Assembly: GCA_030280995.1 (NCBI GenBank)
Contig: JASXTE010000013.1
Span: 16,388,001-16,452,000, forward strand
DNA from: Hemileia vastatrix
Lineage: Eukaryota; Basidiomycota; Pucciniomycetes; Pucciniales; Zaghouaniaceae
Length of the DNA stretch: 64,000 nt
Direction of reading: 5' to 3'
In this document: piece after piece, positions 401 to 52,316 of the stretch
Numbering within the stretch: the first letter of the stretch is position 1
Layout: each line of letters starts with the position of its first letter
The notes under the pieces: generated by a model
The model's database searches: none
What the model was told of the DNA's origin: nothing
Seen by the model: only the letters and a program-made list of their open reading frames with translations
Translations under genes and position numbers: made by a program

Positions 401-540
401 TAAAAAAAATTAAAAAAAGGGAGAGAAAGAAAAAAAAAGAGTTAATATAATCTTGAAAACCAGAGAAAGAACCACTTACAAATAAAAAGAAAACAGAAAA
501 AAAACAATAAAAATTATAATTAGCAATCAAAAAATCAAAA

Positions 541-900: not shown

Positions 901-975
901 GGAGCATATCCCAGTGAGAAGAAATATTAATAGTAGATAAAAATGAAATGAGAATTGTAATAATTCAAGAACAAA

Positions 976-1528: not shown

Positions 1529-1611
1529 CTATAGAGAAGATATAGTTGCTTGTGTTAGTATGAAAGAAAAAAGAAAGGAAGGAATTAAAAATATGCCAAA
1601 TCTTTTTATGG

Positions 1612-3764: not shown

Positions 3765-3768
3765 ATGG

Positions 3769-4401: not shown

Positions 4402-4631
4402 GACTCTTATATGGTATAAAAATGAAAATGATGTAAAATGTTTTGATTTATGAAGTGTTATTCTGAGGAATGCCATGTATGAATGGAATGATGCTGACAA
4501 ATCAGTAAAATGGGAGGTTATGGTGAAATCAGAACTTTTGCTTGAGAATGTGCATATTTGAGTGAAATATGTGACTTATTTCATTTTAAAATCCACCAGT
4601 TTTGGGGCTAGTGTGTTTTAGAAAACCCCAC

Positions 4632-4667
4632 TTAAATAAGTGCAGATTTTCAAGAACTAACACCCCA
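4632..4667 (-). repeat. Terminal inverted repeat and subterminal palindrome, copy D end
   Basis: The plus strand reads CCCCACTTAAATAAGTGCAGATTTT and then CTAACACCCCA followed by TA. It is a decayed version of the ends at 9311-9370 and 32428-32495: CACTTANNTAAGTG palindrome inside, CTGACACCCCC outside. Confidence 0.7.
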
Positions 4668-4829: not shown

Positions 4830-4945
4830 GGGGGTGTCAGTTCTGGCAAATCCGCACTTAACTTAAGTGCAGATTTTAAACCAAATCAGCACTTAAATTT
4901 TGCAAAAAAGTCACTTATTTCAAAAATGGGTGTCAGTTCTGACCT
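4830..4945 (+). repeat. Left inverted end and subterminal repeat of copy B
   Basis: The end reads GGGGGTGTCAGTTCTGG and is followed by a palindromic segment (AAATCCGCACTTA, 3-nt centre, TAAGTGCAGATTT) at 4848-4877. A second GGGTGTCAGTTCTG occurs internally at 4927-4940, also present in copy A. Such repeated subterminal motifs are typical transposase or accessory-protein binding sites in Harbinger elements (family knowledge); binding here is inferred. Confidence 0.75.
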
Positions 4946-5039
4946 CAAATCAGCACTTTTTTCGTGATTTTTTTTTTCTAAACCACATGTTGGCCACATC
5001 ATCCCATTCTTTCCCATACCATTTTTTACTCTCCAAATG

Positions 5040-5293
5040 TCCTCTTTGTGTACTTCATTCACTTGGGTTGGTATTTTGGTTTGTTGCATATTCATTTTTT
5101 TTTGGAATTTAAGGTGAAAATCTTTTTTTTGGATGGCTCATTGGTTTTCTTTCACCAGCTCAACATGAAATCGCATATTTTGTCAGTGATTTTTTTTTTC
5201 ATTCATCCCTCATATCCTTTTCCTATTCTCCTCCAACATCCCTCAAACAATTTGGTTTCATTCATTTTGTCATCTCATCTCTCCAGGTAAGTC
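5040..5293 (+). promoter_or_regulatory. Conserved 5' leader exon of the Tet cassette with splice donor (copy B)
   Basis: It contains the block AACATGAAATCGCATATTTT and ends CATCTCATCTCTCCAG with GTAAGT at 5287-5292, as in copies A, C and D. It lies directly upstream of the pyrimidine-rich tract and the Tet-like gene. It is probably a non-coding first exon and promoter region. Confidence 0.5.
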
Positions 5294-5299
5294 ACTTTA

Positions 5300-5660
5300 T
5301 TCTTTTTTTTGATTTTTTGATTACTAATTATAATTTTTTTTGTTTTTTTCTGTTTATTTTATTTTTTTTATATAAATTTTTTTTGTAAGTGGTTATTTTG
5401 GATTTCAATGGTATAATTAACCTTTTTTTTCTCTCCCTCCTTACTTCCTTTTTGAGCTCCATCACACTACTCTTCATCCCTCCTTGGCATGGTCATTATC
5501 CCCCCTTTCCCTTATTTCACTTTTTTTTGGCTCCATTTCATTGAAACACATACATTGCACATTCTTTATGCATTTCACTTACTCCATATTCAATTTCCCC
5601 ACAATTTCAACATCAATCTTTCTCACTCTATTTTTCCTACTTTTCAATCAAGGTAAGTTT
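5300..5660 (+). repeat. Poly-T and C/T-rich leader tract (copy B)
   Basis: T-rich runs (5300-5400) are followed by CTCCCTCC and CCCCCCTTTCCC type sequence (5430-5520). It corresponds to the longer C-rich tracts of copies A and C but lacks the G-rich half. No gene is seen. Confidence 0.5.
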
Positions 5661-5830
5661 CATCTCCTTTTTTTCATGCCTATATGATATCTCATTCCTT
5701 TTATGAAAACTTCATACCTAAATATATGTATGAATCTTATCTGGATAACAGTGAACTTATAAAACTCCTTTTGATCTCATCTTCATTTCCACTTTTCAAG
5801 TTTTTGTAAAATTTTGAAAATCAGACTCGG

Positions 5831-6180
5831 AATTAGGGTTAGGTTTATTCAAATCTGATGTTCTTTTTACTGAAGATTCTCCTGAAGGCTACCTTTCATT
5901 TCCTACAAACAGATTTGAATTTGATTCAGTGGTTGCTGAGATATTGACCGTTAAAGTTGAGCCTTTTTTTTCCCAATTTAAATTTTTATTTCATTTTTTT
6001 ATGTAATAAATTAGGGTTAGGTTTATTTAAATCACATGTCCTTTAACTGAAGATTCTACTAAAGCATATCTTTCATTTCCCACAAACAGGTTTGAATTAG
6101 GTTCATTGGTTGCTGAGATTTTGACCTTTGAAGTTGAGCCTTTTTTCCAAATTTCACTTGTCTTATTTCACATTTTTATA
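5831..6180 (+). repeat. 178-bp tandem duplication upstream of Tet copy B
   Basis: Two units start at 5831 and 6009 (AATTAGGGTTAGGTTTATT). They share ACTGAAGATTCT, CTTTCATTTCC and GGTTGCTGAGAT and both end near GTTGAGCCTTTTTT. The duplication lies between the leader and the last Tet exon and is absent from copies A and C. It may be intron sequence. Confidence 0.75.
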
Positions 6181-6232
6181 TTGCATATTTAGAGAATAAG
6201 GATTCTGAAACTCTTATATGATTATTATCTAG

Positions 6233-7990
6233 GCATATATTTGTTGCTCACAAATATCACTAAAGCTCAAAAAGATGAAGATTTTTGCTTATGGGACACT
6301 CTACCTTCCTTTAACTCTTTTCTTGCTCTTAGACTCAAAAAGCTCTGTAATAAAGCATTTGATAAAAATCATGAACTTGAAACCAAAGTTGGAATACCGA
6401 ATTGGTGTGACTCCAAATGGGAAGATATCAGCCACAAATATTTTTTATTTTCTAATGTTATTATCACTCATTCTGGATTCCACAATAGGATTCATATCGA
6501 TAGGAATGATGCCAATTTTATTACTTTTGGTATATTCTCATATATCAATCCGATAACTGGCCAACCAATACCATCTCCAGCTAAAATCAAAGGACATGGT
6601 TTATATTTTCCAGACCACCAGTGTGGTCTTCCAACATTGGCAGGGGCCTTGGTTGTGTGATTTGGCGCGGTTTGTGCATGTCTTAATTGACATCTGTTAA
6701 AGAATTGGGTATTTTTCTGGTTTTATTCCGTATATATTAGGTCTGCGGGTATGTGGGTACTATCATTGGATAGCCCTGGTTTTTCTCTATATTTTATGTC
6801 TTGAAGACATTTTTCATATTCTGAGTTTTAAGGGGTCATTTCCTCATTTTTCATTTATAAAAGATTGCTGTTTAATTTTGTTTTTTGTGTTTTACGGGCT
6901 AACCTTAAGTCTTAGGGTTAAGTGCTTAGTACCATTGGATAGAGATGATTTTTCTCTGTATTTCATGTCTGAATGTTGTTATAGTGAAATTCCGTGTTTT
7001 TAAAGGTTTTAGTAGTTGTAGCTAATTTTTCTAAGTAGATTAGTGGTTTTTATTGGTTTTCTGGCTTCAGGGAGGCCGGGCCACTTCAGGCGGCATCTCC
7101 GACGTCAGGTGGCCCGCCCGCCTCTGTTTTAGGAGGTTGGGGAGCGCTCCAGGAGGGTTTTTTATGCAATTTGGCGGGTACAGGCGCCAGATTGGTGGGT
7201 GCGCATGGGCTCTTAGTTAGTGGTCTGTGTGTACATAGTGAATAAGACAGTTTGGGGCAACCTTAATCATCATACAACCATCCGGAGGTGATATCATTGT
7301 TCCTCACTCAGTTTTCACTGTTTTCTGGCCACAATTGGCTGTGTTTGTTGCAAGTGAGTTCTTCATTTAACTTAACTTTGGCAACTGTTTTCTCTGTTAT
7401 AGTCTTGCAAGCTATAGCAAGTATTATTGCTGTCTCTGGTGTGGATTTGCAGCCTACATCAAGTATCTTTGCTGTCTCTGGTGTGGACATTTGTCTACAG
7501 TTCAATTCTTTGGTCTGGTAGTCTGTCTGGGGACTACTTTCTTGGCTCATCAAGCAGTCGAGTGTATTGGAAAAGCAGCTTTTGGTATCCAGGAACCAAT
7601 TTACTGTAGCAGGTAAATCTCACTTATTTTTCTAAAGGGACAGGGGATTTTCTCTCTGGTTTTTCTCCAACTCCCTTGGTCAAGGCCTATAGCTAGTACT
7701 ATAGGATTGTCTACACCGGTGCATCATTGATTTTGGTTTGGGAAATGGTATCATTAAAACTATTTGGAATTCTTCTAAGGATAATCATTGAACGACCAAA
7801 GCTCCTCCTGGTTTGGAATCCTGTCAAGATTTAACACATTTTGGTTGCTCATTTCAAATCAGTCATAAGTTGATTCAAAGAATCAATAAGGTAAAGTTAA
7901 TGGATTTAAAAAAACTTTACCTAGATCCAAAAAGTATGGGGATTAGAGTTATTGTCGAAAATTTTATATTTTTTCATAAATTTTTAATAA
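6233..7990 (+). pseudogene. Tet-like 2OG-Fe(II) dioxygenase (copy B, split by a solo LTR)
   Basis: An acceptor TTATCTAG at 6225-6232 opens the exon. It encodes WDTLPSFNSFLALRLKKLCN, then FSNVIITHSGFHNRIHIDRN with the Fe-binding HxD intact (His-Ile-Asp), and GIFSYINPITGQPIPS. The LTR at 6622-7715 follows LYFPDHQC, after which the frame resumes with FGLGNGIIKTIWN, the distal His in DNH, a TGA in place of Gln, and FGCSFQISHKLIQ. This order (HxD, a Gly-containing strand, distal His, FGxSxQ) fits TET/JBP-type 5-methylcytosine oxidases, which are expanded in rust fungi. The N-terminal half seen in copies A and C is absent. It is the only copy here with HxD preserved. Confidence 0.75.
6622..7715 (+). 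mobile_element. Solo LTR (TGTGGTCTTCC family) in the Tet gene
   Basis: It is 1094 bp, starts TGTGGTCTTCC and ends TTGTCTACA, with 4-bp flanks CCAG (6618-6621) and CCGG (7716-7719). Its right third is nearly the same as 2700-3043. Excising it rejoins the Tet reading frame between PDHQC and the FGLGNG motif. The GC-rich patch at 7060-7200 (GGCCGGGCCACTTCAGGCGG) is inside it. Confidence 0.85.
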
Positions 7991-8039
7991 ATATTTTTTA
8001 TGTATCAATTTCCTCAACTAAAGTAATGGGCCCACAACC

Positions 8040-8190
8040 TTGTGTTGTATAAAAGGTAATCATGATAACATTTATTTGTTTCATGGGGTTCCTCTAGCCT
8101 ATACCTGTGGAAAGTCCCAAACTTTTGTTTCTAGATTTGATCTGCATTTTGGCTCGAGGGATTGTCATTACTTTAAACTAGGGAAATTGA
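8040..8190 (+). other. Conserved segment downstream of the Tet gene (copy B)
   Basis: The stretch around AATCATGATAACATT and CTAGCCTATACCTGTGGAAA recurs after the Tet gene in copy A (minus strand, about 28140-28260) and copy C (51640-51750). One frame reads PLAYTCGKSQT in copy B, but A has a stop and substitutions are mostly non-synonymous, so coding is doubtful. It is possibly a 3' UTR or RNA element. Confidence 0.5.
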
Positions 8191-8231
8191 TATATATTAG
8201 ATATTTATTTAATAATTTATGTAATTATATT

Positions 8232-8398
8232 AAATTTAGATGACTTCCACCACTTACTTCAATAAAATGCAGGGGGGGGGGGGTATTGCCAAATTTTCAA
8301 ATCTGACATGTGAAATTGATGACTTTGAAAAATTTTGGTGATATCCACCCCTTGCTTCAAAAAAATGCAGGGGAGAGTATTGCCAATTTTTTAAAACA
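8232..8398 (+). repeat. 93-bp direct repeats at the 3' end of the Tet cassette (copy B)
   Basis: Two units contain CTTCAATAAAATGCAGGGG and GTATTGCCAA with CACATGTGAAATTGATGAC-like spacers. They are the reverse complement of the 93-bp repeats at 27831-28078 in copy A. The cassette joins transposase sequence about 8400. Confidence 0.75.
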
Positions 8399-8439
8399 GA
8401 TATAGAATTTTTTTTGACTTGTAAATATTTTGGTGAAAT

Positions 8440-9085
8440 TTTTTGACAAGGATGTGAAAGTAATTGTTTCCACCTTGAGTAGGTTTCTGGCTCAAAGGAA
8501 TAGTAGTACCATCAACAAAACCAATACATCCTTGGAAGCCCTCTGATTGCATAACCTGAGATGATTCAAGTTGCTCTTCTTTTGTTGGCCAGGTGAGAAG
8601 TTGAGATTCCAAGGAGTTGATGGCAGTGATACATCGTTTGGTATAAGTGTTAACTGAACCATACCCTAAATCAAAGACATTTTCTAAACGTTTCAAAGCA
8701 GCTCCATTACCATTTGAACCCAAACGACATAGTGTGATGGCCAATTGAATTGAAGGATGTTGTTGTTCTTTTTGAGAATTATTGTGAGATATGGGATGAT
8801 CCTGAATAAGCTCAAGCAATTTAAGGAAACATTCCTGAGAAGTCCTGAACAGCTGTCTAAAACTGGGTGTAGATAGGTTAAGAAGTTTTTGGATGGTGTA
8901 CTTGGGGGTATGAAGTACTTGAGGTTTTCTGGGAAGAAGGTAATGTTTCGTGGCCATTTTTAATAAAAAGACAAATCTTCTTATAGATCAGACTCAGAAT
9001 CGGAATAAGTGTCCAAGAGCAGTTCAAGAGCCATGAAAGTCATTGCTTTATGTAATTTATCACGATTTGAAAGTGAGGAAGGAAT
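8440..9085 (-). pseudogene. HARBI1-like transposase, 5' part (copy B)
   Basis: The ancestral start is ATT (9083-9085) instead of ATG. From 8957 an open stretch reads RKPQVLHTPKYTIQKLLNLS through LGSNGNGAALKRLENVFDLG to CIGFVDGTTIPLSQKP, with the first catalytic Asp intact. Similarity stops after GGNNYF at about 8450, where the inverted Tet cassette begins, so exon 2 with the other catalytic residues is absent. It converges with the Tet-like gene. Confidence 0.85.
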
Positions 9086-9310
9086 AACTCTTATATGATA
9101 TGATATGAAGATGTAAGTGATGTACAATGTTTTGAGTTATGAAGTGTAATGCTGCAGAGTGCTGCGTATGAATGGGATGATGCTGACAAATCAGTGAAAT
9201 GGGACTTTATGGTGAAATCAGCACTTTTGGTTGAGAAAGTGCCGATTTGAGTGAAATAAGTGACTTATTTCATTTTGAAATCCACCAGTATTGGGGCTAG
9301 TGTGTTTTGG

Positions 9311-9370
9311 AAATACGCACTTATTTAAGTGCGGATTTGTAAGTGCAGATTTTCCAGAACTGACACCCCC
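9311..9370 (-). repeat. Right inverted end and subterminal palindrome of copy B
   Basis: AAATACGCACTTATTTAAGTGCGGATTT (two arms at 9311-9338) precedes AGAACTGACACCCCC, then TATTTAC. It matches the transposase-side end of copy A at 32428-32495. Confidence 0.8.
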
Positions 9371-25871: not shown

Positions 25872-25990
25872 GAGGGTGTCAGTTCTGGAAAGTCTGCACT
25901 TAACTTAAGTGCGGATTTCAAACCAAATCAGCACTTAAATTTTGCAAAAAAGTCACTTATTTCAAAAATGGGTGTCAGTTCTGACCTCAA
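25872..25990 (+). repeat. Left inverted end and subterminal repeats, copy A
   Basis: GAGGGTGTCAGTTCTGG is followed by the palindromic pair around TGCACTTAACTTAAGTGCGG (25894-25913) and an internal GGGTGTCAGTTCTG at 25970-25983. The first 190 bp are shared with copy B. Confidence 0.8.
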
Positions 25991-26227
25991 ATCAGCACTT
26001 TTTTTGTGATTTTTTTTTCAAAACCACATGTTGGCCACATCATCCCTTTCTTTCCCATACCATCCCTATCACATGTGATACACTGACCTTGCTCGCTATG
26101 TACCCATCAATCCTTGGAACACACCCCTTCCTGACATTTTCAACATTTTGACCAGGCATGTTTACATTCTTTTTTACTTATTTCTTCTACCTCTTAATCT
26201 TTTTTCTTGTTATGTGCAAGTTTCATA

Positions 26228-27540
26228 ATGCCTCACAGACATTCCAAATCTCAAAAGGTAAGTCAAAAATCTGCTTTGTCACAAAAGTCTCCTCGTAAAG
26301 CAAGCCCTACACCTGAAAAATCAAAGTCAGGTTCAGGTCAGCTTAAAAAAGATGATTATCTCATCATAATAAACTTCCTTAAAATAAAATCAAAATTTGA
26401 AGCATGTTTTGGATGTGAATAGTCCACTCATATTGGATGTCCACCTTCTTCAAAAGTTAATGGCTACTTATTGATGGCCAATGAAGTAAGGAAGAAAACA
26501 AGGGGGAGAATCGATATCAATCCTAAACAAATGAAGGAGATATTTAAGAGTTACCAATCAAAATATAAAAAGGCTCATAATGCTGCAAATGAAACTGGCT
26601 TCAGTATTGACGATGATGATTTGGAGATTGGAATTACTACTGTTTCCAAAAAGCTCAATGTCATGTGTCCTTTCTATGAGGAAATGGATAATCTTTTTGG
26701 CTCCTGAGTTGATGTAAACCCTTGGTTTCTACACAATACTACTAAGGATATACCCTCTGGATCCAAACCTTCCTATAATCCTCCTGACACACCTTTACTT
26801 GAAGGAGATCAATCCCCTCCACCTTCTAACCATAGTTCAGCTGAAGATGATCCCGACTATCAAGCAGAACAATTATATTGCAGCAGATCTGAATCCTCAG
26901 AGGCCCAAAATTTAAATTTATGTTTACTTTTTGTTTTTTCTTCAATTCTTCACTGAATTTCTCTTTCATTATAGTCTCCTCCTACTCAAACTCAATCTCC
27001 ATTAAATAATCTCAATTCTGGAAATGTGAATCCCACTTTAGAAGCTGCTTTAGATGAACTTCCTGAAGCCTCTTGCTCAAGCTCCAAACTAAAGCGTCGA
27101 GCCTCAACTTCAATGAACTTGAACCATCTATTAAAACGTGGTAATAATTCAACAAGCTCATTTGGCTCCCTTGAGGATTATTTTGAAAATAAAGATATAA
27201 GTAAGATTCGTTTACTATATATCTTAATCATTAACTCATTTATTTATTTATTTCAATTTAATTTTCTCAGCAAAATCAACTATTGCCAAAAATGCCCTTT
27301 ACTTTGAGAAGATGAAGTTTGATCATATGCTAAGGAAAGATCAGCAAGCCTTAGATTTGGAAGAAAAAAAATTGAGGCAGAGCAGATGGAAAGAGTAAAT
27401 GACTGTCAATTTCAAAGAGAAATTGCTACTTGTGAATTAGAAAAACAAGAGAGTTTCAAAAAAAATATTTCATTATGGAATGTGTAAAAAATGGCCGATC
27501 TTATGAGGAAATTAAAAAATTACTTGACCTTTTCAATTGA
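26228..27540 (+). pseudogene. Myb/SANT-like DNA-binding protein of the transposon (copy A)
   Basis: It starts MPHRHSKSQK, with a basic, Ser/Lys-rich N-terminus. The trihelix-like domain runs DDYLIIINFLK, then after a TAG, HIGCPPSSKVNGYLLMANEV, RIDINPKQMKEIFKSYQSKY and TGFSIDDDDLEIGI, ending CPFYEEMDNLFGS before a TGA that fits a mutated Arg codon. Predicted introns end at 26972 (CATTATAG) and 27270 (TTTCTCAG). The C-terminus is charged and helical (coiled-coil like) and ends SYEEIKKLLDLFN with TGA at 27538-27540. Harbinger transposons typically pair their transposase with such a Myb-like protein for import and end binding. Two stops and a frameshift near 27370 make it a pseudogene. Confidence 0.75.
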
Positions 27541-27636
27541 TAAATTGTTTTTCTAGTTAATTTAATTTTGTTTGATTTCTTTTTGGTAATATTTTCTTAT
27601 ATGCTGACTTATAAAAGGTCTTGAATATAGTACATT

Positions 27637-27790
27637 ATTTTTGACAAATTTTTGAAAATATCATACAATTTTTCTATCTTTACATTCAAGTCAATAAGTT
27701 TGCTTATACTTTTATTTTGACAAAAATTTGAAAATATAATAAAAAATTTCTATCTTTACTTTCAAGTCAATAAGTTTGCTTATCTAAATA
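27637..27790 (+). repeat. Direct duplication of about 75 bp
   Basis: Two copies of GACAAATTTTTGAAAATAT and CAAGTCAATAAGTTTGCTTA occur in tandem between the Myb 3' end and the 93-bp repeats. Confidence 0.75.
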
Positions 27791-27824
27791 CTTCTAAGTC
27801 AATAAAATTCAATATCTCTTTTGA

Positions 27825-28080
27825 AAATTTGGAAATACCTCCCCTTGAATTTTATTGAAACAAGGGGTGGGTACCACCAAATTTTTCGAAGTCATCAATT
27901 TCACATGTCAGATTTAAAAAATTGGCAATACCCTCCCCTGCATTTTTTTGAAACAAGGGGTGGGTACCACCAAATTTTTCTAAGTCATCAATTTCACATG
28001 TCAGATTTAAAAAATTGGAAATACCCTCCCATGCATTTTATTGAAGTAAAGGGTGAAAGTCATCAAAATTTAATATAATT
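27825..28080 (-). repeat. 93-bp tandem repeats at the 3' end of the Tet cassette (copy A)
   Basis: Units start at 27831, 27924 and 28017 with GGAAATACC/GGCAATACCC, CCCTCCCCTGCATTTTTTTG and GGGGTGGGTACCACC. Because 93 is divisible by 3, one frame gives a repeat-protein-like translation, which I treat as an artefact. Related repeats sit after the Tet gene in copies B and C. Confidence 0.85.
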
Positions 28081-28129
28081 ACATAAATTAATTAATATAT
28101 AAATAAGATATGTCAAATTTACTACTTTT

Positions 28130-28265
28130 AAAGTAATGACAATTCCTCATGCCAAAATGCAGATCAAGTCTAGAAACTAGGTTTGGAACTTTCCACAGGT
28201 ATAGGCTAGAGGAGCCCTATGAAACAAATTAATGTTATCATGATTACCTTTTATACAACACATGG
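28130..28265 (-). other. Conserved segment downstream of the Tet gene (copy A)
   Basis: The minus strand carries the same GGTAATCATGATAACATTAA and CTAGCCTATACCTGTGGAAA block as copies B and C, about 200 bp after the Tet frame. Confidence 0.5.
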
Positions 28266-28434
28266 TCGTTGGCCCATTACTTTAATTTCATAAATTGAAA
28301 TATCATATTTATTTATTAAAAATTTATGGAAGAATATTAAATATGTGGTGACTCTAAAAATCCCCATACTTTTTAGATCTACCTAAAGAATGTTTAAATT
28401 TATTACCTTTTTCTTCTTTTTTTAACTTGTTTAT

Positions 28435-29539
28435 TCATTGGATTAACTTTTGACTGATCTGGAAAGAGCAACCAAAATGCGTGAAGTCTTGACAAGATTC
28501 CAAACCTGGAGGAGCCTTTGTGGTTTGGTGATTATCGTAAGAAGAATTCCAAACTGTTTCGATGATTCCATTTCCTAATCCAAAATTGATTATACATCTA
28601 TGATACAGGAAATATAATCCATGTCCTTTAATTTTAGCAGGTGACGGAATAGGTTGTCCAGTGATAGGATTAATATATGTGAAAATTCCATAAGTGAGGT
28701 AATTGGCATCATTTGAGTTGGTGTGAATTTGGTTATGAAATCCAGAATGAGTGATTATAACATTTGAAAACATTAGATAATCACTGCTAATATCTTCCCA
28801 ATCAGAGTCGCACCAATTTGGTATTCCAAGTCTTGTAGCAACTTCATGATTTGTTTCAAAAGCTTTATTACAGAGTTTTTTAAGTCAAAGAGCAAGAAAT
28901 GAATTAAATGAAGGTAAAGTATTCCATTTTCAAAAATCATTATCTAATTCAGCTTTAGATAAAGATCTGAGTAAAGAATATATGCCTATTTGAATTAAAT
29001 TCAGTAAAATGATATTATAAAATCCAGAAAATTTTTTAAACATACCAGGAGAAAAACCTTTATCAAATCCTGGTCTCCATCCAATACCAATCATGATTCC
29101 ACCCAAAAAATTCTTATTCCTTAAAGGTAAGCAAACCAAAGCCATTTGATAGAGTGTTATGATGAGATCGCAGAGTTTATTAAATGATTCATCTTTTAAA
29201 CCATTAAAAGAATGGTTTTCGTAAATAAATTGAGGGTTTAAAGTATTATTAATAACAGCTTTAGCTTCATAACCTCCAGTTTCAGTTAAATAATGTATAT
29301 TTTCAGGTAATGTTTTTGGATATTGTTTTTTTTTCAACTTTAGTTTTATAGCACTTGATTTTTGAAATATGGCCAAATATTTGATCCAAGTGAATTTTTT
29401 TTAAATTTCTTTTATTTTGATACTGTTCATTTTTTGTCAATGTTTTAGATGATGATTGAAAAGAATTTGAATTTGAAGATGATAATGAAGTTAAAGAAGA
29501 TGAGAGTGAGGTAAGTGGTGAATCTGAAGTTAAAGACAT
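28435..29539 (-). pseudogene. Tet-like 2OG-Fe(II) dioxygenase (copy A)
   Basis: The start at 29539 gives a Ser/Thr-rich leader, then KIHLDQIFGHISKIK. After a frameshift in a poly-A run near 29330 it continues YPKTLPENIHYL, HSFNGLKDESFNKL, GGIMIGIGWRPGFDKGFSPG. A 60-bp intron (29045-28986, GTATG to ATAG) is at the same place as in copy C. Then TGA for a Cys position, WNTLPSFNSFLALRLKKLCN, and the catalytic region: HSGFHNQIHTNSND (Fe-binding Asp replaced by Asn), GIFTYINPITGQPIPS, FGLGNGIIETVWN, distal His in DNHQT and THFGCSFQISQKLIQ, then TGA where copy B has Arg. Motif order fits TET/JBP oxidases acting on 5-methylcytosine. It lies downstream of the transposase in the same direction. Not functional. 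Confidence 0.8.
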
Positions 29540-29889
29540 GTATTTTTCTACTTTTGGGTGTTGTTACTTTTCAAACACCCAAAATTATACATTAAAAAAA
29601 CTCACTTAATTTAAATTAAAAAAATAAAAATACTCAAAAGACTAATAAGAATTTTTTTTATTTCACTTGGACTTGATGAATATTTTTCTCTAAAATTAAA
29701 AAACAAAAAACAAAAAAAAAATTCAAAAAACTGTAAAAATTTTTTTATTACTTCCCCATTCCCCTAAATTCCCCGCTCCAAACCCCTCTCCCACCTCCCC
29801 ATAACCCTTGTACAAACCCCCCCTCCAACCTATTCACATATCCTTTTAAACCCCTCCAAACCCCATTCCAAACCCACCTTCAATCTGCC

Positions 29890-29962
29890 CCAAACCCCCC
29901 TCCAAATCCCCCTCCAAATCCCCCTCCAAATCCCCCTCCAAATCCCCCTCCAAATCCCTCTT
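29890..29962 (+). repeat. 12-bp microsatellite CCCCCTCCAAAT
   Basis: About six consecutive units of CCCCCTCCAAAT within the C-rich domain. Confidence 0.9.
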
Positions 29963-30133
29963 CAATCCCCCCTTCAATCTCCCCCAAACCCCCTCCAACC
30001 CCCCCAACCCCCCCCCCCTTCAATCCACCTCTATTTCCCCCCTCCAACCCCCCCTAAACCCCCCTAACCTCCCCCTACCCCCCCTACCCCCCCCCCAATC
30101 CCCCCCAAACCCCCCTACCACCCCCCCTCTCAA

Positions 30134-30172
30134 TGTTCCTTAATGATTTGTTAGCAAATCGTTAAGGAACAA
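30134..30172. repeat. Hairpin at the centre of the C/G-rich domain
   Basis: TGTTCCTTAATGATTTG, loop TTAG, CAAATCGTTAAGGAACA: a 17-bp stem with one G:T-type mismatch, at the exact switch from C-rich to G-rich strand. Confidence 0.85.
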
Positions 30173-30659
30173 TGAGGGGGGGATTGGGGGGGTTTTGAGG
30201 GGGATAGGAGGGGGTTTTAGGAACGGATTGAAGGGGGGTTTGGAAGGGGGGTTGGAGGGGATTTGGAGGGGGGATTCAGGGGATTTGGAGGGGGGTTGGA
30301 GAGGAATGAGGAGAGGAAATGAGGACACCAACAAGGGGGAGAAAGGAGAGATGAGACCAAAGATTGAGAAAAGTGAGGTTAGAGTGAGCCAAGGAGGGGG
30401 GAATACGGCAGCCAAAGGGGGGAAAAGGGGGATGTATCCATTCCAAGGAGAGGGTAAAGGTGGGAAAAAGCCCAGGCAAAGGGGGGATAAAGAATAGGAT
30501 AAATGAGAGAAAAGAGGGAGAGAGAGAGAAAAAAAAGGTTAATTTTACCTATAAATTTAAAAAAAACTACTTACAAAAAAACAAAAACAAAACCAAAACC
30601 AAAAAACCAAAAAACCAAAAAAAAAAATTAGCAAAAAATTAAGTAAAAAAGATAAAATG

Positions 30660-30900
30660 ACTTACCTGGAGAGATGAGTTAATAAAAAAGAAATATAAGT
30701 GAAATTGTTTGAGTGATGTAGGAAGAGAGGAGAAAACGGATATGAGTGAAGAAAAAAAAGAGAGTGACTGAAAAAATATGCAATTTCATATTGAGTTGAT
30801 GAAATAAAACACAGAGAGATAAAAAAAAATAAGACTTTAACAGCTAATTCAAAAACCAAAAAAATATGCAAAAAAATTTACCATTCTCAGTGAATAACAC
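30660..30900 (-). promoter_or_regulatory. Conserved 5' leader exon of the Tet cassette with splice donor (copy A)
   Basis: On the minus strand the block AATATGAAATTGCATATTTT is followed by pyrimidine-rich sequence and AACTCATCTCTCCAG with GTAAGT (donor at 30665). It begins about 35 bp after the transposase stop, so it probably carries the start of a separate Tet transcript. A protein start here is unlikely because the first ATG frame closes after about 37 codons. Confidence 0.5.
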
Positions 30901-30935
30901 ATGCAAATTGATAATTTGAAGAGAATAAAAAAAAT

Positions 30936-32201
30936 TTAAAATTGCGTTGAAAAATGTTGGAGTGTTATTGGAAGAATTTTTGCCCTTATACTAGTTGATT
31001 GAGAAATAAAAGTGTTGGATATAGTCGGAGGTGAATCAACTTGTTCATCTTCATGCAGCTCTAACCATTGATCTTTGAGGTCAGCAAGTAGGTTATGAAG
31101 TATAGTGCAACACAGAATCCAGTTGATCACCGCCTCCATTTCAGCTTTATTTCTAAGAGGACTTCTTAATTCCCTTAAACTAGAAAAACTGCCTTTCAAG
31201 ATTCCAATAGAATGTTCAATATGGACCCTTGACTTTGCCAAATGATTGTTGAACTTGTAATTTTGACTGTCTTCTGAAGCTGCTCCCTGAAAATCAGGAA
31301 GTACATACTTTCCATTCACATAAGCAGAATCTGCAAGAAGATACTGATCTTTATCAAAGAATTTTTCAAGTTCATTTGAAATTTGCATTCTTTGGAAGAC
31401 GTAGGAGTCATGACATGAGCCAGGATAGCCAGCAAAGAATGATATAAATTTTTTGTTTACGTCACATATAAGCTGAATGGAAATTGAATATCTATAAAGA
31501 AGATATATTTGTTTGTGTTAGTTTCAAAGAGAATGAAAGGAGTTAAAAATAATCTACCTCTCTTTACGGTCAAAGTAATTGTTTCCACCTTGAGCAGGTT
31601 TCTGGCTCAAAGGAATAGTAGTACCATCAACAAAACCAATACATCCTGGGAAGCCCTCTGATTGCATAACCTGAGATGATTCAAGTTGCTCTTCTTTTGT
31701 TGGCCAGGTGAGAAGTTGAGATTCCAAGGAGCTGATGGCAGTGATACATCGTTTGCTATAAGTGTTAACTGAACCATACCCTAAATCAAAGACATTTTCT
31801 AAACGTTTCAAAGCAGCTCCATTACCATTTGAACCCAAACAACATATTGTGATGGCCGATTGAATTGAAGGATGTTGTTGTTCTTTTTGAGAATTATTGT
31901 GAAATATGGTATGATCCTGAATAAGCTCAAGCAATTTAATGAAACATTCCTTAGAAGTCCTGAAAAGCTGTCTAAAACTGGGTGTAGATAGGTTAAGAAG
32001 TGTTTGGATGGTGTACTTGGGGGTATGAAGTACTTGAGGCTTTCTGGGAAGAAGGTAACGTTTCGTGGCAATTTTTGATAAAAAGACAAAATCTTCTTCT
32101 AGATCAGAATCAGAATAGGAATCAGAGTCCAAGAGCAGTTCAAGAGCCATGAAAGTCATTGCTTTATGTAATTTATCACTATTTGAAAGTGAGGAAGGCA
32201 T
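30936..32201 (-). CDS. HARBI1-like DDE transposase, intact two-exon gene (copy A)
   Basis: Exon 1 is 32201-31558 and exon 2 is 31491-30936, joined by a 66-bp intron (GTAGATT to TTATAG); the joined frame is 399 residues with no stop. The start MPSSLSNSDK is shared with copy D. Residues 1-50 are acidic; the helical region follows (HTPKYTIQTLLNLSTPSF, LGSNGNGAALKRLENVFDLG). The DDE_Tnp_4 catalytic core reads CIGFVDGTTIPLSQKPAQGG (first Asp), GSCHDSYVFQRM (second Asp), YLLADSAYVNGKYVLPDFQG, and VHIEHSIGILKGSFSSLREL (Glu). It would cut and paste elements with GGGGGTGTCAG ends, acting in the nucleus, probably with the Myb-like partner. Copies B, C and D share the same intron or exon limits but are broken. 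Activity is not shown, only integrity. Confidence 0.9.
31492..31557 (-). other. 66-bp intron of the copy A transposase
   Basis: Donor GTAGATT at 31557, acceptor TATAG at 31492. The intron of copy C (48194-48259) has the same length and borders. Splicing joins AG with A to give an Arg codon between KE and YSI. Confidence 0.85.
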
Positions 32202-32427
32202 AACTCTTATATGATATGATATGAAGATTTAAATGATATACAATGTTTTGAGTTATGAAGTGTTATGCTGAGGAGTGCTGCGTATGAATGGGATGATGCT
32301 GACAAATCAGTGAAATGGGACTTGATGGTGAAATCAGCACTTTTGGTTGAGAAAGTGCGGATTTGAGTTAAATAAGTGACTTTTTTCACTTTTGAAATCC
32401 ACCAGTATTGGGGCTAGTGTGTTTTGG

Positions 32428-32495
32428 AAATCCGCACTTAGATAAGTGCGGATTTGGTCAAATTTAAGTGCGGATTTGCCTGAACTGACACCCCC
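32428..32495 (-). repeat. Right inverted end and subterminal palindrome, copy A
   Basis: A palindrome with arms AAATCCGCACTTA and TAAGTGCGGATTT at 32428-32455, another half-site AAGTGCGGATTT at 32466-32477, and CTGAACTGACACCCCC at 32480-32495 followed by TA. Confidence 0.85.
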
Positions 32496-32519
32496 TATTT
32501 AGTCCAGAATGAAAATTTA

Positions 32520-33540: not shown

Positions 33541-33769
33541 TCAGTCAGCAATGGCAAAATTCATCCCTGAAGGAGAAGATGAAAATAACAAAGCACTCAC
33601 ATCCTTATATCCAGTGGAATCTCAATCTAAAGATGATTTATCATTCATTTTATTCAACTTAAATTTGATGATTTTATATAAGAAGAAAACTATTTCTGAT
33701 CAGGAATTTATATTTGATATAATTAACAACAATGCTTATGAGCTTTCTGATTGCCTACCTTGAACTCTA

Positions 33770-44830: not shown

Positions 44831-45713
44831 ACACTTGTTGCTCACAGAGGTACTTTAAATTTAAATGATTTACTTGGTACCATTCTTGGTATGTGCTTGA
44901 ATGGCATACAGAGAATTTCTGAAACACACAAGCCCCAAAACTGGTGGATTTCAAAAGTGAAATAAGTCACTTATTTCACTCAAATCTGCACTTTCTCAGC
45001 CAAAATTTTTAATTTCACAATAAAGTCCCATTTCAATAATTTTTCAAAATCATCCCATTCATATGCATTACTGAATGGCATACTAGTTCATAACTCAAAA
45101 TTTTTTACATCATTTAAATTTTATACCATATGAGAGTCATTCCTTCCTTGCTCTCAAATTGTGACAAATCATATCAAGAAATGACTTTCATAGCTCTTGA
45201 TCTGCTCTTGGACTCTGATTCTGATTCTGATCTTGAAGTAGACTTTCTCTCTTTATCAAAAATAGCCAGGAAAAATTACTTTTTTCCAAGAAAGCCTCAA
45301 GTAATTTATACCCCTAATTACACCATCCAAACCCTTCTTAACCTACATGTGCCCAGTTTTAAAAAGTTGTTCAGGAATTCTCAGGATTTTTTCCTTAAAT
45401 TACTTGAGCATATTCAGGATCAGCCCATCCTTCACAAAAATTCTCAAAAACAAGAACATAATTCTTCAATTCAATTGGCCATCACACTATGGTGTTTGGG
45501 TTCCAATGGTAATGAAGCTGCTTTAAATTTTTGAAAAATATCTTTTATTTAGGGTATGGTTCTATTAAAACTTACAAAAAATGATGCATCACTGCTATAA
45601 ACACCTTTTAATCTCAACTTCTCACCTGGCTGAAAAAATAAGAGCATTTTGAATCATCTCAAGTAATTCAAGACAAGGGTTTCCCAGGATGTATTGGTTT
45701 TGTTGATGGTACT

Positions 45714-46964
45714 TGTCAGCCAGTCGTCTAGAAGAGGGAAGAAAAAGGGGAAGAAAGAGATAGAGGAGGACAATGAGAACGGCTTTGAGGAATAAAAAAA
45801 ATAAAATATAAAAAATTATTTAATTTATTTAAAGGAAGGCAACCACGAGTAACTTGAGAGATGACAAAAGTGAAGTTTTTAAATAATATTATTTTGGTGT
45901 AAGGGTTTCTGCGCGGCAAACACTATGAGTACTATCAGACTTAAGGCAATCTCTGGTTAGTTATATAGAATTTTAATTAGAATTATAATACTAATAAAAA
46001 ATAATTTAAACTTAATAGAAAATATTTTCAAGTTTGTTGAGTATATAGTAAGTGATGCTTCTACAGGGAATTATCCAAGGCCCTTTTATAGGCAATGGGT
46101 CCTCTGAAGCGCTACAAGTGACTATATACAAAATAGTAATGAAGTAAAACAAGAAGATAAAAGAAGACATCTGTAACATAGTAATTAAGAGAAAATTATA
46201 CAAAAAATAATAAGAATTCCAATTAAGAATGTAAAATTCTCATCCCAAATTTCCCAAATCAGTTAATACAAAATAGTGAGTAACTAAACAACCCTGTGAT
46301 CTAAGAACTATGGGAAAAACAAATCAAAACAAGTATTACAATCTGTTTTCAGCATTTCTAAGTGAAACATATAGCATGTTTTGACGTTACAAGGTATGCA
46401 ATCATTTTAATTCAGTGTAAATTAATATTTATTAATTGTTTTCACTATGTAATTTAATAACTAGTTTAACTGATACAATTAATTAATTTAATTTGAGAAT
46501 TTATAATACTATTTTATAAAATAAGTATTATATATTATTTGATTTTCTTCCTGACACAATTAAGGTTCAAAAGAAGCGCCATTAATTATTGTTTAATACT
46601 ATATGAAAGATGTTTTTTAATATATAAATTTAAATAATTAATTTAATTATATTATAAGTCAATTTTACACTTATAATTATAATATATGTTTTTAATTAAT
46701 TAAATATAAATTTATAATTATTAAATACATAAAAATGCGCCATTATTTGTAGAATATAAAATATATTATGCTTAATTTAAATGTATAAACAATATATATA
46801 ACAATAAAATTAATATAACACTTATATTTAATAAGATACTTATATAATTTTATTATACAATAAAATATTAATTTATATACATCAAATGCAATTATTTATG
46901 CCCTCTTTCAGGTCCCATAAGTTACCATATCATTTACTGGGCTCCTGGAATAGCCTGGCTGACA
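45714..46964 (-). mobile_element. Solo LTR (TGTCAGCCAGG family), minus orientation
   Basis: 1251 bp, ends TGTCAGCCAGTC and CCTGGCTGACA, with target duplication GTACT at 45709-45713 and 46965-46969. The TATA region CTATAAAAGGGCC is on the minus strand near 46080. It interrupts the transposase between VDGT and the TTIPLS motif, and matches 22395-23678 in reverse. Confidence 0.9.
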
Positions 46965-47014
46965 GTACTACTATTCCTTTGAGTCAGAAAACTGCTCAAT
47001 TTGGAAAAAATTAC

Positions 47015-48171
47015 TGTCAGTCTATGCTACTAAATAAGTATGATTTGATAGTAAATATTAATGGCCACACTACTTTATAATATATTATTTTTTTCTTAAA
47101 CCTCAGGGAAAGAATTATAAAACTGTTATACTCAATTTTTAACCCACAATTATTGAATTGGTGCAGGCTGGTGGAAGAAAATAGAATAATAAAATATAAT
47201 TTGGCTAGTATAAAGATATAATAAATCTATAAGGGATTTGAAATATATTTGTATATAATGATACTTGTTTGTAATTGTTTTTTGGATGTGCAGTAAGTGA
47301 ATGATCTCTAATAAGTGGCCAAATCCCTCTTTACTTATAACAAAACCCACTAGAGCTCACAGACTTTCCTTCCAAATGATTCGACTTCACTCCCTGGAAA
47401 TTACTGAACTGTTAGGGATCATTACCTCCCCATTTCTTCCACTTCAAGAAGTTTCATCACCCAGACCTCGATTTTGGACCCTCCATCAAAATTAATGCTA
47501 TCATACCACTATAAAATAAACAGAAGAAACAGAGAAAAGTGTAAAACATAAAGGAAAAAATTAAAATGGCTCATCCAAAGAGAATAATATGAAACTAAAA
47601 GGATATAAAGGGAAAAAAATAAGTTTCCAAGCTCCTAGTAACAATCACAAGCCTCCATGTTGAACCATTAACCATCAACCAACCCAGGAATCTGTGAAAA
47701 TCTATTGAAGAAGGCAGATAAAGTTGTCCAAACTGAATACATGTGTGTGTAAAAGGAATGCATGCATGTTTAGGCATAGTGAATCCATTGAATACTTGCA
47801 CATGACCTAGAATAAGTGGGATAATCATGCATATAGGCTATTTAGAGGGTTAAACCACCATATAGTCCTATATATGTGTAGTATAAATGCATATTAAACT
47901 GAATATGGAGGTTATACATGCATATGAGCTTATGTATGTGTCTTGTTACTTAATATCACTTGTGATAAGCATATTATTACAACAATAGCACCTTAATAAG
48001 TATCATGGGGCTAAAGAAAAGCTACTTAAACTCATATAAGTCCATATAATAGTATAATAAACATATATATAAGTATAATAGCCACATAGATAACTTATAG
48101 GCTTAATGCAATTATGTTTATCTTATTTTAACTATAAGAATTACTCAATCCTTGAGATACCTAGGCTGACA
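47015..48171. mobile_element. Solo LTR (TGTCAGTCTA family), second copy
   Basis: 1157 bp, starting TGTCAGTCTATGCTAC and ending CCTAGGCTGACA, with target duplication ATTAC at 47010-47014 and 48172-48176. It interrupts the transposase at the Asn-Tyr-(Phe/Leu) position. Confidence 0.9.
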
Positions 48172-48929
48172 ATTACTTGGACCAAAAAAAGAGGTAGATT
48201 ATTTTTTAATTCCTTTCATTTTTTTCATACTAACACAAACAGCTGTATCTTCTCTATAGATATTCGATTTCTGTTCATCTTACATGTGAAATCAAAAAAT
48301 TATATCTTTTATTGCTGGCTATTCTGGATCCTGTCATGATTCCTACATCTTCCAAAGAATGCAAATCTCAAAAGAACCTGAAGAGTTCTTTGATGAAGAT
48401 CAGTATCTTCTGGAAGATTCTGCCTATGTGAATGGAAAGTATTTATCTCCTTCTTTTTGGAGACAAGAAACAGTAAAAATTCCAAGTTCAACAATCATTT
48501 GAGAAATTCAAGAGTCCATATTAAAAATTCTATTGGAATCTTGAAGTGTCTTTTTTCTAGCTTAAGAGAATCAAGAAGTCCTCTTAGAAATATATCAAAA
48601 ATGGAGGCAGTGATCAACTGGATTTTGTGTTGCACTATAGTTCATAACCAACTTTCTGAACTTAAAGATCAATGGTTAGAGTTGTATGAAGATGAAGAAG
48701 TCAAAAAACCTCCCACTACATCCAACACTTGTAATTCTCAAACCACTAGAATAAGGGAAAAAATTCTTCCAATCAAACTAACACATTGGAAGATTTACCC
48801 TTAATTTATTCTTAAATTTTATAAATTCTTATCTACCCTTACTAACTCCTTTTGATTAGGAAAAATTACTTTCCAATAGGATATGCTTCATAATTATGCC
48901 AACAAAACTTCAAAATTTTTCAACACGAC

Positions 48930-49230
48930 CCTTTTAATCTTTTTTTCATACTCTTCAAATTATCAAGTTTCATGTGTTACTCACTTTTAATGAATGGTTA
49001 TTTTTTTTCTCATATCATCTTTGATTTTGAATTTGATTTTAAAGTCTCTTTTTTTCAAGTCTCTTTTTTTTCTTCATCTTTTCAACAGAAAATCACATAT
49101 TTTTTGCAATCACACAATTCATCAGTCATTCTTCTTTTCTTTTATTTATCATATCTTTTTCCTCCGCTCCTCTTGCATCCCTAAAATAATTTGAAGTCAA
49201 TGGTTTTCTCAACTCATCTCTCCAGGTAAT
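48930..49230 (+). promoter_or_regulatory. Conserved 5' leader exon of the Tet cassette (copy C)
   Basis: It matches the leaders of A, B and D: CTTCAAATTATCAAGTTTCA, GAAAATCACATATTTTTTGC and AACTCATCTCTCCAG followed by GTAATT at 49226, a slightly weaker donor. Confidence 0.5.
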
Positions 49231-49319
49231 TCATTTTTTTATTTTTACTTATATATTTGCTAATTATATTTTTTTTCTATTTTTTTATTTTTATTTTTTG
49301 TAAATGGATTTTTACTTTT

Positions 49320-50140
49320 TTTCTAGGTGAAATTAAACTTTTTTCTTTTCCCTCTTTTCTATCTTTTTTTCTCTCCATCATTATATTCTTTATCCCTCCT
49401 TGGCCTTGGTATTTTCCCACCTTTACCCCCTCCTAAACTGCCTCAATTCCCCCTTTCCCACCCCTTGGCTTCATCATTACTCCCTCTTTTTCTGCTCCTT
49501 GGCTGCCTCCAACCCCCCCCTTCTCCTCTCCTTGGCTGCCTCTAACCCCCCTCTACTCCCTCATTGGTTTCATCTCTTCAAACCCTTTCTTTCCCCCTTA
49601 TTTGTGTCCTCAATACCCCCTAAATACCCTCCATCCCCCCTAACACCCTCTCATAAACCCTCCTTGGAATCCTTTATCTCACCCATACCCCCCCTTCTAC
49701 CTACCTGAAACCTGGCCCACCCCCCTCTCCTTTTTTTTAAAAAAAATTTTTTTTTAAATCATTCATTAATGAAACAAAGTACCACCCCCTTCACCTCCCC
49801 TTTAACCACAACCACCTTTCACACACCTGTAACGGCCACCCTGCCAGCTTTACTGGCTGGTTGGTCTACCTACCTATACCACCACCCAGTCCAAAATATA
49901 AACAATATGCCAACCAGGTTCCTGGCTGAATGGCTAACCACATACTACCACACACCACCACCCACCCTCCCTTCCATAAAAACAACAGAAAGCCAAGTTC
50001 ATTGTCTATTTGAGAGCCTGCAACCCCCACTTTCCCCTCTAAAAAAGAACAGAAGTGACATGACCACACCCATGCAGCCACAACCACTTATCTATTACCT
50101 ACCCTGTCACCCCCACTTCCAACTGCCTAAAAAAAACTTG
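49320..50140 (+). repeat. C-rich tract upstream of the Tet gene (copy C)
   Basis: 49380-49730 is dense in CCCCC and CTCC, with four copies of CTCCTTGGCTGCCTC-like units near 49495-49560. A T/A-rich centre (49730-49770) follows and then moderately C-rich sequence. Unlike copies A and D the second half is not G-rich. Pro-rich frames here are artefacts. Confidence 0.7.
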
Positions 50141-50347
50141 ACAGATATGTCTTAGAACAATTATTAATTTTATTATTATTTTTTTCAGAATTAAAAAAAA
50201 TATTCCTCATTTTCAATTGAAGTAATAATTATTCTTATTAGTTTTTTGTGGCAAATTTTTAAGGTCATTTATTTTGAATTATGGGAGGTTTTTTATTTTT
50301 TATTTTTTGAGTATTATAATATAACCAGTTTTTTTGTAGAAAAAAAC

Positions 50348-51540
50348 ATATCTATTTCTTCATACTAACCCCTTACTTCTATCTCATCTTCTATAATGTC
50401 ATTATTATCTTCTTCAATTTCAACTTCTTTTCAATCATCATGTAAAAAATCAAAAAAAAAATTATAATTGAAATCAAAAAAAAGATATTTTAAAAAAAAA
50501 TTCACTTGGATAGTATATTTGAAAAAATTCAAGAATCAAGTATTATAAAACTAAAGTTCACAAAAAAATGAATATCCCAAGAAGTTACCTGAAGATATCA
50601 AATATCTAACTCAATTGGAAGGCAATGAAGTTAAAGCAGTTATCAGTGATTCTTTTAAGCCTCAATTTGTTTATACAAATCACTCTTTTGATGGCTTAAA
50701 AGATGAATCTTTTAACCAACTATCCAATCTCATCACCACACTATATCAAATTGCTTTGGTTTGCTTACCAGTAAGAATAAGAATTTGTTGGGTGGTATCA
50801 TGATTGGATTTGGATGGAGACCAGGATTTGTTAAAGGTTATTCTCCTGGTAAGTCTAATAATTTTTGTTTCATTCTTAATATCATTTCACTCATTTTAAT
50901 TCTATAGACATCTATTCTTTTCTTATAAGTCTATCTAAAGCCAAAAAAGATAATTATTTTTGAAAATGGGGCACCTTATCTTCCTTTAATTTTTTTCTTG
51001 CTCTTTATCTCAAAAAACTTTGTAATAAATCTTTTGAAAAAAATCATGAACTTGCTAATAGAGTAAAAATTCCAAACTGGTGTGATTTAGAGTGAGAAGA
51101 AATTAGTAAAAAAAATCTATTTTTTCAAATTTTATAATCACTCATTCAGAATTTCAAAACAAGATTCATACCAATACCAATTATTCCAATTATCTTACCA
51201 TGTGGATATTCTCTTATACTGATCCTATCACTTGCCCACCTATTCCTTCACCTGTTAAAATAAAAGGTCATGGGTTATACTTTCTGGATCATATGTGTAT
51301 AATTAATTTAGGTTTATGAAATGGAATCATCAAATCTGTTTGGAACTCTTCTCACAATAATTACCAAATGACAAAAGAACCTTCAGCTTTTCAATCTTGT
51401 CAAGAACTCACACATTTTGTTTTCGATTTTCAAATCAGTCAAAATTTAATCCAACAAATAAAAAAGGCAAAAAAAGAAGGAATAGGTAATAAATTTAATA
51501 AAACTTTAGGTAGATCAAAAAAATTATGGGTATTTGTAGA
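50348..51540 (+). pseudogene. Tet-like 2OG-Fe(II) dioxygenase (copy C)
   Basis: The ancestral start is ATA (50348). EGNEVKAVISDSFKPQFVYT and HSFDGLKDESFNQLSNLIT are followed by GGIMIGFGWRPGF-type sequence, a 59-bp intron (50849-50907, GTAAGT to CTATAG), and a TGA at the same place as copy A. In the catalytic region the HxD is His-Thr-Asn, the distal His is Tyr (NNYQ) and FGCSFQ reads FVFDFQ. Frames change at least twice. Same architecture as copy A but more decayed. Confidence 0.8.
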
Positions 51541-51639
51541 GTAACAAAGTATGTATTAATATTTCGTAAATTTTTAATAAATTAATCTGATATTTCAATT
51601 AACTAAAATAAAGTAATGGAACAACCACCTTTGATTTGT

Positions 51640-51995
51640 ATAACAGGTAAACACGACAACATTAATTTGCTTCATAGGGTTACTCTAGCCTATACCTGTG
51701 GAAAGCCCCAAACTTCTATTTCTAGACTTGATCTGATTTTGGAATGAGGAATTGTTGTTACTTTAACTCTAGTTAATTTGACACATCTTATTTTTTTTAT
51801 TTATTAATTTATGTAATTAATTTAAACTTTGGTGATTTTCACCCCTTACTTCAATAAAATGCAGGGGAAGGTATTTCCGAATTCTCAAATCTGACTTGAA
51901 AAATTGATAACTTGGAAAGTTTTTGGTGATACCCACCTCTCACCACAACAAAATTCAGGGGAGGGTATTGCCAAAATCTCAAAAAAGATATAGCT
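51640..51995 (+). repeat. Conserved 3' segment and 93-bp repeats of the Tet cassette (copy C)
   Basis: CTAGCCTATACCTGTGGAAA lies at about 51686-51705; two repeat units with ATAAAATGCAGGGGAAGGTA and CAGGGGAGGGTATTGCCAA follow at 51855-51975. Confidence 0.7.
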
Positions 51996-52189
51996 TTTTG
52001 TTGAATTAGCTCTATTTAGAAATGCAAATTGTACAGGTGTTAGTATAATTTCACCATCTGAAATTCTAAAATTGTGATATTTTAGAGTACCATAAAAACA
52101 AATTGTGTTAACAGAATATGATGACATAACTATTTTTGATTAAAGAAAAAGTAACTACTAATGTCATGCCCCAACCATTACCCAAAAAA

Positions 52190-52290
52190 AAAATGATCAA
52201 TTAAAAAGTTCAAGTAATTTTTAATGTACTCATAAGATTGGCCATTTTTTATACATTATATAATGAATTATTTATTTTTAAATTTTCTAA
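52190..52290 (-). pseudogene. 3' end of the Myb-like gene (copy C)
   Basis: The minus strand matches the end of the copy A gene (27470-27540): AAAAAATGGCCAATCTTATG corresponding to the KNGRSYEE stretch, then the terminal Leu-rich segment. The rest of the gene was lost to or lies beyond the gypsy insertion at 52317. Its orientation, convergent with the Tet gene, confirms the element plan. Confidence 0.7.
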
Positions 52291-52316
52291 CTTTTCTAAT
52301 TAATGATGTGGTACAC

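Follow-up and report, generated by a model that had tools for sequence, protein, structure and literature searches.

A Tet-like oxygenase gene within a recurring three-gene Harbinger-type transposon of Hemileia vastatrix

Do a transposase gene, a gene for a Tet-like oxygenase and a Myb-like gene that lie side by side in the rust fungus Hemileia vastatrix form one mobile unit, and what would the oxygenase do there? The question is raised by a 64,000-nucleotide stretch of the genome (assembly GCA_030280995.1, contig JASXTE010000013.1, positions 16,388,001 to 16,452,000, forward strand; called the window here), in which an earlier note, made from the sequence alone, had placed the three genes between one pair of inverted ends. 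We found that positions 25872-32495 are a single Harbinger element of 6,624 bp with TA at both borders (copy A), and that the proposed arrangement is real and recurs in 9 of 37 end pairs sampled in the genome. Copy A itself is a decayed copy, called so because its Tet-like gene (28435-29400, minus strand) has two stops in frame, its third gene has one, and HTN stands in place of the HxD motif. We consider it fairly probable (about 0.6) that copy A is a decayed autonomous element of the published TET-bearing (TET+) Harbinger kind named PHISTA, whose Tet-like enzyme serves as an anti-silencing gene.

The transposase of copy A, whose frames are open before and after a single predicted GT-AG intron, matched PF13359 (DDE_Tnp_4) at E 3.5e-26, in agreement with the earlier assignment. 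With at most one mismatch allowed, the end motif occurred seven times in the window against 0.23 expected, and none of 100 shuffles reached seven; four of these matches are the ends of copy A and of a second copy (copy B), two lie in a long terminal repeat (LTR) pair and one (50104) is unrelated. The genome search covered 747.6 Mb in 791 contigs, and the exact 11-mer end was found at 4711 + 4763 = 9,474 places, compared with 19 + 16 = 35 for the reversed control. The first 100 listed of these 9,474 places extend to 8.49 Mb and are all on contig C2; they gave 37 plus/minus pairs less than 9.7 kb apart, four minus/plus neighbours and one same-strand neighbour pair. All 37 end pairs were retrieved and their gene content was typed by tblastn.

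This analysis showed that nine end pairs held the third gene, Tet and both transposase parts, with identical order and orientations in each, while 15 (about 3.4-3.8 kb) held a fragment of transposase exon 1 and Tet in the opposite orientation. The remaining pairs carried the transposase only (5/37), the exon-1 fragment only (3/37) or the third gene with the exon-1 fragment (2/37), and there were three single cases: L024 had the third gene twice plus the transposase, L012 had fragments of all three genes, and L029 had none. Tet or a piece of it was thus present in 25 of the 37 pairs. TA flanked both sides in 36 pairs, and the site AATAAT (either strand) was used in 34. A single pair of ends thus encloses all three genes, and this recurring unit is inserted at TA, for the most part within AATAAT. 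Full-length copies with all three frames open, which the earlier note had suggested looking for, were absent from the nine full elements. The three-gene set seems to have been split into derivatives that carry parts of it; the transposase-only loci L010, L037, L042 and L044 and the loci with third gene and exon-1 fragment, L011 and L022, carry the same ends.

A Tet motif of this family (family 1) has 445 exact genomic matches, and the listing covers 100 of them. Seven of the listed places fell in C2:1-8.49 Mb, and six of the seven lay within the sampled exact end pairs, so in this stretch the Tet of this family lies mostly within the ends. In a separate Tet survey, 150 matches were scored from 10,968 first-look candidates, which is not a gene count; of the 150, three fall on C2 below 8.49 Mb, all of them outside GGGGGTGTCAG ends. 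Each of these three copies (L046-L048) accompanies another Harbinger transposase, which we call family 2 (PF13359, E 4.8e-25). Its transposase regions are 50-59% identical to those of copy A (one 46-aa piece reaches 70%), its Tet is 81-85% identical to the C-terminal part of the copy A Tet, and the third gene was found in L047 and L048, with none in the stretch retrieved for L046. Some Tet copies of the genome thus lie outside the GGGGGTGTCAG ends, but these three belong to a sister element built in the same way.

Profile search placed the Tet-like protein in the Tet-like oxygenase family, as the earlier note had supposed: intact relatives matched PF20515 with 103 bits and E 2.9e-29. Neither outcome that the earlier note had named as refuting was seen. 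The iron-binding motif is HTD or HID plus NHQTTK in the intact relatives L019 and L047, and the His of NHQTTK reads as the distal ligand in an alignment with Austropuccinia psidii proteins. The L019 protein was at best 36% identical to the four proteins found, which are from that species. Searches of PDB sequences with the Tet-like protein gave no credible match, and the predicted model of one relative (P0001) had a mean pLDDT of 32.5. The enzyme would presumably act as an oxidase on 5-methylcytosine.

Whether such a substrate is present can be judged from the decay of the copies. CpG transitions were counted in nine full elements (copy A and eight loci, without the 9.1-kb L015) and in 15 elements of the small class. 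Their rate was 0.195 in the full elements, compared with 0.018-0.026 at other C contexts, and 0.169 in the small class, compared with 0.007-0.011, which means an excess of 7.6-26 times. Among known 5' neighbours the transitions peaked at TCG (0.27 in full elements, 0.24 in the small class). This excess is a mark of CpG methylation or of hypermutation directed at CpG methylation, and in the related rust Austropuccinia psidii young transposons are reported to be methylated at CpG (PMC12774611). The catalytic Asp itself lies on a CpG, because the Asp codon of HxD is preceded by C in most copies. A recount of the 100 listed motif places gave 48 with the CpG kept, 14 with TG (Asp kept) and 38 with CA (Asp changed to Asn), in a motif pattern that restricted those two bases to C/T and A/G; part of the 38 Asn copies may stem from one changed copy.

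The 15 small elements, or 3.7-kb class, are chimeras, in which family-1 ends and transposase exon 1 are joined to an inverted, family-2-like Tet block. With L041 as query, the first 940 bp were 92-97% identical to the nine full family-1 elements and only about 70% identical over ~400 bp to family 2; the next 2.35 kb, which holds Tet, was 93.5-95% identical to three family-2 loci and about 80% identical over ~1.1 kb to full family-1 elements; and the last 350 bp was family 1 again (92-95%). The Tet block runs opposite to its orientation in both families, and at the first junction there are repeat matches of the kind found beside Tet. The direction in which Tet was transferred is our inference. 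A working Tet supply from the small class was also considered, and this idea was weakened by a stop that 11 of the 15 elements share. In the chimera one can trace how a Tet unit recently passed between two transposon families with transposases of just about 50-59% identity.

The third gene is likely to be of the Myb/SANT type: all nine aligned copies matched PF13837 (Myb_DNA-bind_4), though always below the gathering score. This was the only recurring match, and the best E value was 0.0012, obtained with copy A. No homologues of the third protein were found at E 0.001, its PDB sequence search gave no match, and its predicted fold had a pLDDT of 50.

If copy A is a decayed TET+ element of the PHISTA kind, the transposase would cut and paste at TA, aided at the ends by the Myb/SANT-like DNA-binding partner. 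While a copy is active, the Tet-like enzyme would oxidise 5-methylcytosine at the CpGs of the element, and this would keep the promoters and the CpG-bearing subterminal repeats TCCGCACTTA usable, so that expression and end recognition could continue; Tet would in this way act as an anti-silencing gene. After insertion the copies would be methylated anyway and their CpGs would decay, among them the one overlapping the codon of the catalytic Asp, and derivatives with a broken Tet or none could be served in trans. Within the 37 elements, the repeat TCCGCACTTA (and its complement) was found nowhere but in the outer 150 bp; the first triplet of the left subterminal repeat, as named in Table 1, is usually CCG in other copies (58 of 74 sampled ends). 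Purifying selection between the families speaks for this reading: comparison of family 1 with family 2 (NG86, one pair of copies per gene) gave a ratio of nonsynonymous to synonymous substitution (dN/dS) of 0.087 in Tet, of 0.093 and 0.084 in the two transposase exons and of 0.185 in the third gene. These ratios are rough, since dS (1.4 for Tet, 3.6 and 3.1 for the transposase exons, 2.5 for the third gene) approaches or exceeds saturation. The recurrence of the unit at TA, the match to PF20515, the CpG decay and the retention of CG at most sites of the subterminal repeat count in its favour as well. A bolder version, possible but doubtful, gives these repeats a further role: the Myb/SANT-like protein would bind them in the outer 150 bp and bring Tet just before transposition, making methylated donor ends cuttable, so that the element would carry a self-addressed demethylation kit with a Tet unit that is recent and exchangeable among Harbinger families, as the 3.7-kb chimera suggests.

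Several results weigh against the anti-silencing role of Tet. PF12851, which we take to be Tet_JBP, gave no match at E up to 1, and no other oxygenase model matched at E up to 1, hence there was none to the classical TET/JBP model. Transposase-only elements without Tet exist (5/37), Tet-broken and Tet-less derivatives have spread, and of the 15 small elements 11 have the same Tet stop, with two keeping the Gly codon of the relatives and two having other codons. Estimated CpG loss, divided by other divergence, came to 6.3 for nine full elements, 13.2 for the 15 elements of the small class and 10.3 for three family-2 loci (partial); for comparison, four Tet-less transposase-only elements gave 5.9 (L014, the fifth, was not included) and one LTR pair in the window gave 6.4. 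No shielding is visible: in this small comparison CpGs disappear from Tet-bearing copies at the same pace as from Tet-less ones. This is a weak test with few copies of differing ages, in which most mutations postdate the silencing of a copy. In the subterminal repeats, CG was kept at 141 of 172 sites and lost at 31, so the terminal CpGs are not clearly spared relative to the element-wide transition rates of 0.17-0.20. Fast CpG loss without sparing of Tet-bearing elements argues against lasting self-protection. The suggestion of the earlier note that the enzyme could demethylate its element is therefore something we infer rather than observe, because CpG loss was no lower in Tet-bearing copies than in the four Tet-less ones. 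With many Tet-bearing and Tet-less copies in one genome, the question of shielding is directly testable.

The missing sparing in that small comparison, the multiplication of 11 of the 15 small elements despite their common Tet stop and the occurrence of transposase-only elements would all suit a Tet that is passive cargo, captured and shuffled by recombination and of little use to its carrier. We regard this as unlikely, since the dN/dS of Tet between families is as low as that of the transposase (one pair), the three-gene order is identical in the nine elements that hold all three, and two families each bear Tet. From this pair of copies per gene, Tet appears about as constrained as the transposase between the families, and its lower dS fits a later exchange of Tet between them but does not prove it. 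The enzyme could instead modify DNA in another way, for instance by a CMD1-like conjugation or by oxidising another base, and so mark element DNA for the transposase, or hide it, with no demethylation. Kojima (2025, PMC12730594) allows for another activity, and CMD1 is named there among the closest solved relatives, but no sequence feature seen here suggests another substrate, and the CpG decay makes it probable that the usual TET substrate, methylated CpG, occurs here; we consider such a function quite improbable. Finally, nested insertion of separate elements could bring three genes together in a repeat-dense window where insertions interrupt copies B, C and D, but this is very improbable and was rejected as an artefact, since nine full-size elements elsewhere share order, orientation and outer ends, the second family has the same plan, and one nested founder of all nine copies would itself amount to a unit. 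The TET+ PHISTA-kind element with an anti-silencing Tet is the reading we keep.

The features of copy A and the other copies in the window are listed in Table 1. The earlier note had described copy C as a repeat of copy A; the order of transposase and Tet is indeed kept, but tblastn found no match to the Myb domain in copy C, and about 118 bp remain at 52185-52301 that match A 1564-1681, downstream of the Myb domain. Copies B and D do keep parts, as had been stated, but copy B belongs to a different structural class, having the arrangement of the 3.7-kb chimeras with Tet inverted relative to the transposase fragment. Its Tet is interrupted at about 6624-7714 by an insertion of ~1.1 kb; 7360-7723 resembles 2692-3051, and a further Tet-like copy, 92% identical to the copy B Tet, lies ~7.6 kb before the window (C84:16380401-16380820).

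Table 1 Features of the Harbinger copies in the window
Feature	Position	Strand	Remarks
Copy A, three-gene Harbinger element	25872..32495	.	inverted ends, TA both sides, three genes; structure recurs in 9/37 sampled end pairs
Left (Myb-side) end GAGGGTGTCAG, one mismatch	25872..25882	+	TA precedes at 25870-25871
Left subterminal repeat pair CTGCACTTA ... TAAGTGCGG	25894..25914	+	offsets 23 and 35 from end; candidate protein-binding site
Third gene, Myb/SANT-like domain part	26423..26707	+	PF13837 E 0.0012, below gathering cut-off; one stop just upstream breaks frame
Minisatellite between third gene and Tet	27631..28055	.	similar repeat matches at one junction of small chimeric class
Tet-like oxygenase, C-terminal part	28435..28884	-	PF20515 E 2.5e-20; HTN replaces HxD, His of NHQTTK retained
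Tet-like oxygenase, N-terminal part	28930..29400	-	relative L019 is one open 368-aa frame
Transposase exon 2 ORF, two catalytic motifs (ADSAY, IEHSIG)	30936..31517	-	PF13359 E 3.5e-26
Transposase exon 1 ORF, first catalytic Asp (FVDGT)	31554..32228	-	GT-AG intron between exons 1 and 2, a sequence-based prediction
Right subterminal repeats, CCGCACTTA x2 and TAAGTGCGG x1	32432..32473	-	offsets 23, 45, 56 from end; candidate protein-binding sites
Right (transposase-side) end GGGGGTGTCAG	32485..32495	-	TA follows at 32496-32497
Copy B, small chimeric class	4830..9370	.	transposase exon-1 fragment and oppositely oriented Tet, TA both sides
Copy C, degraded inverted copy	44915..52301	-	transposase and Tet in order; insertions break copy
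Copy D	254..4649	.	transposase fragments on - strand only; interrupted at about 1612-3767

Other repeats surround these copies. Directly left of copy A, a tandem array with a unit of ~0.6 kb occupies 15567-22398 and 23676-25343, and CpG observed/expected is just 0.04 at 16-20 kb within it. The direct repeats 52307-53522 and 62775-63994, about 90% identical, provided one of the CpG-loss controls; they lie around open frames that we take to be a Gypsy-type retrotransposon from their motifs, and the open frames at 33518-34426 are presumably part of a Copia-type one. Two dispersed repeat pairs (22394-23679 with 46965-45713, and 43146-44300 with 47017-48171) are about 75-80% identical, and one member of each sits inside copy C.

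The kind of element is already known, since Kojima (2025, PMC12730594) described in December 2025 a set of 15 TET+ Harbinger families, which come from six Pucciniales and make TA duplications, and named the lineage PHISTA. The combination that the earlier note could not place matches these elements, and the idea of an unknown combination was rejected, as TA-flanked, TET-bearing Harbingers in Pucciniales are in print. Copy A has the main PHISTA features, namely a Harbinger-type transposase, TA target duplication, a Tet-like gene, a third protein and occurrence in Pucciniales. That paper describes third proteins without a Myb/SANT domain, whereas PF13837 matched 9/9 copies here, below the cut-off. 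It proposes escape from methylation-based silencing and movement of Tet from transposon to transposon; a single case of transfer between different transposons exceeded 70% nucleotide identity, with about 80%. In the accessible part of that paper we found no small class that combines a transposase fragment with an inverted Tet, and relative to that part two things are new, namely the chimera and the CpG position of the catalytic Asp, which has become Asn in 38 of the 100 copies listed. We found no other report of PHISTA in the literature on Harbinger transposons.

In a transposase tree of 62 rows (60 of them from 100 database proteins, chosen for suitable length; the family-1 row is almost exon 2 alone), our two rows fell in a clade of ten with P. 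coronata, five P. striiformis and two unnamed rows (support 100/99). Among high-coverage matches at the top of the list, the family-2 transposase was at best 51% identical (Puccinia coronata). The Nuwa branch of Harbinger, as described by Kojima (2025, PMC12730594), likewise joins a transposase with a Myb/SANT-type protein (weakly supported here), but has 3-bp duplications and two proteins, unlike the TA and the Tet gene found here. Identical 3-bp flanks were present in none of the 37 pairs.

TET/JBP genes were reportedly described on KDZ elements (Dileera, Kyakuja, Zisupton) by Iyer and colleagues in 2014, a work that Kojima cites. Those elements are also fungal DNA transposons with a Tet-like oxidase, but their transposase superfamily differs from the DDE_Tnp_4/Harbinger type seen here. 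Our data enlarge the set of transposons with a presumed anti-silencing enzyme by further families, of which one is abundant (one Tet motif has 445 exact places). The anti-silencing protein of plant Vandal elements is VANC, and to our knowledge it is not an oxygenase. Vandal elements, mentioned by Kojima (2025, PMC12730594) as carriers of anti-silencing proteins, are unrelated to the element described here and share with it a transposon-borne anti-silencing gene, as a functional parallel only.

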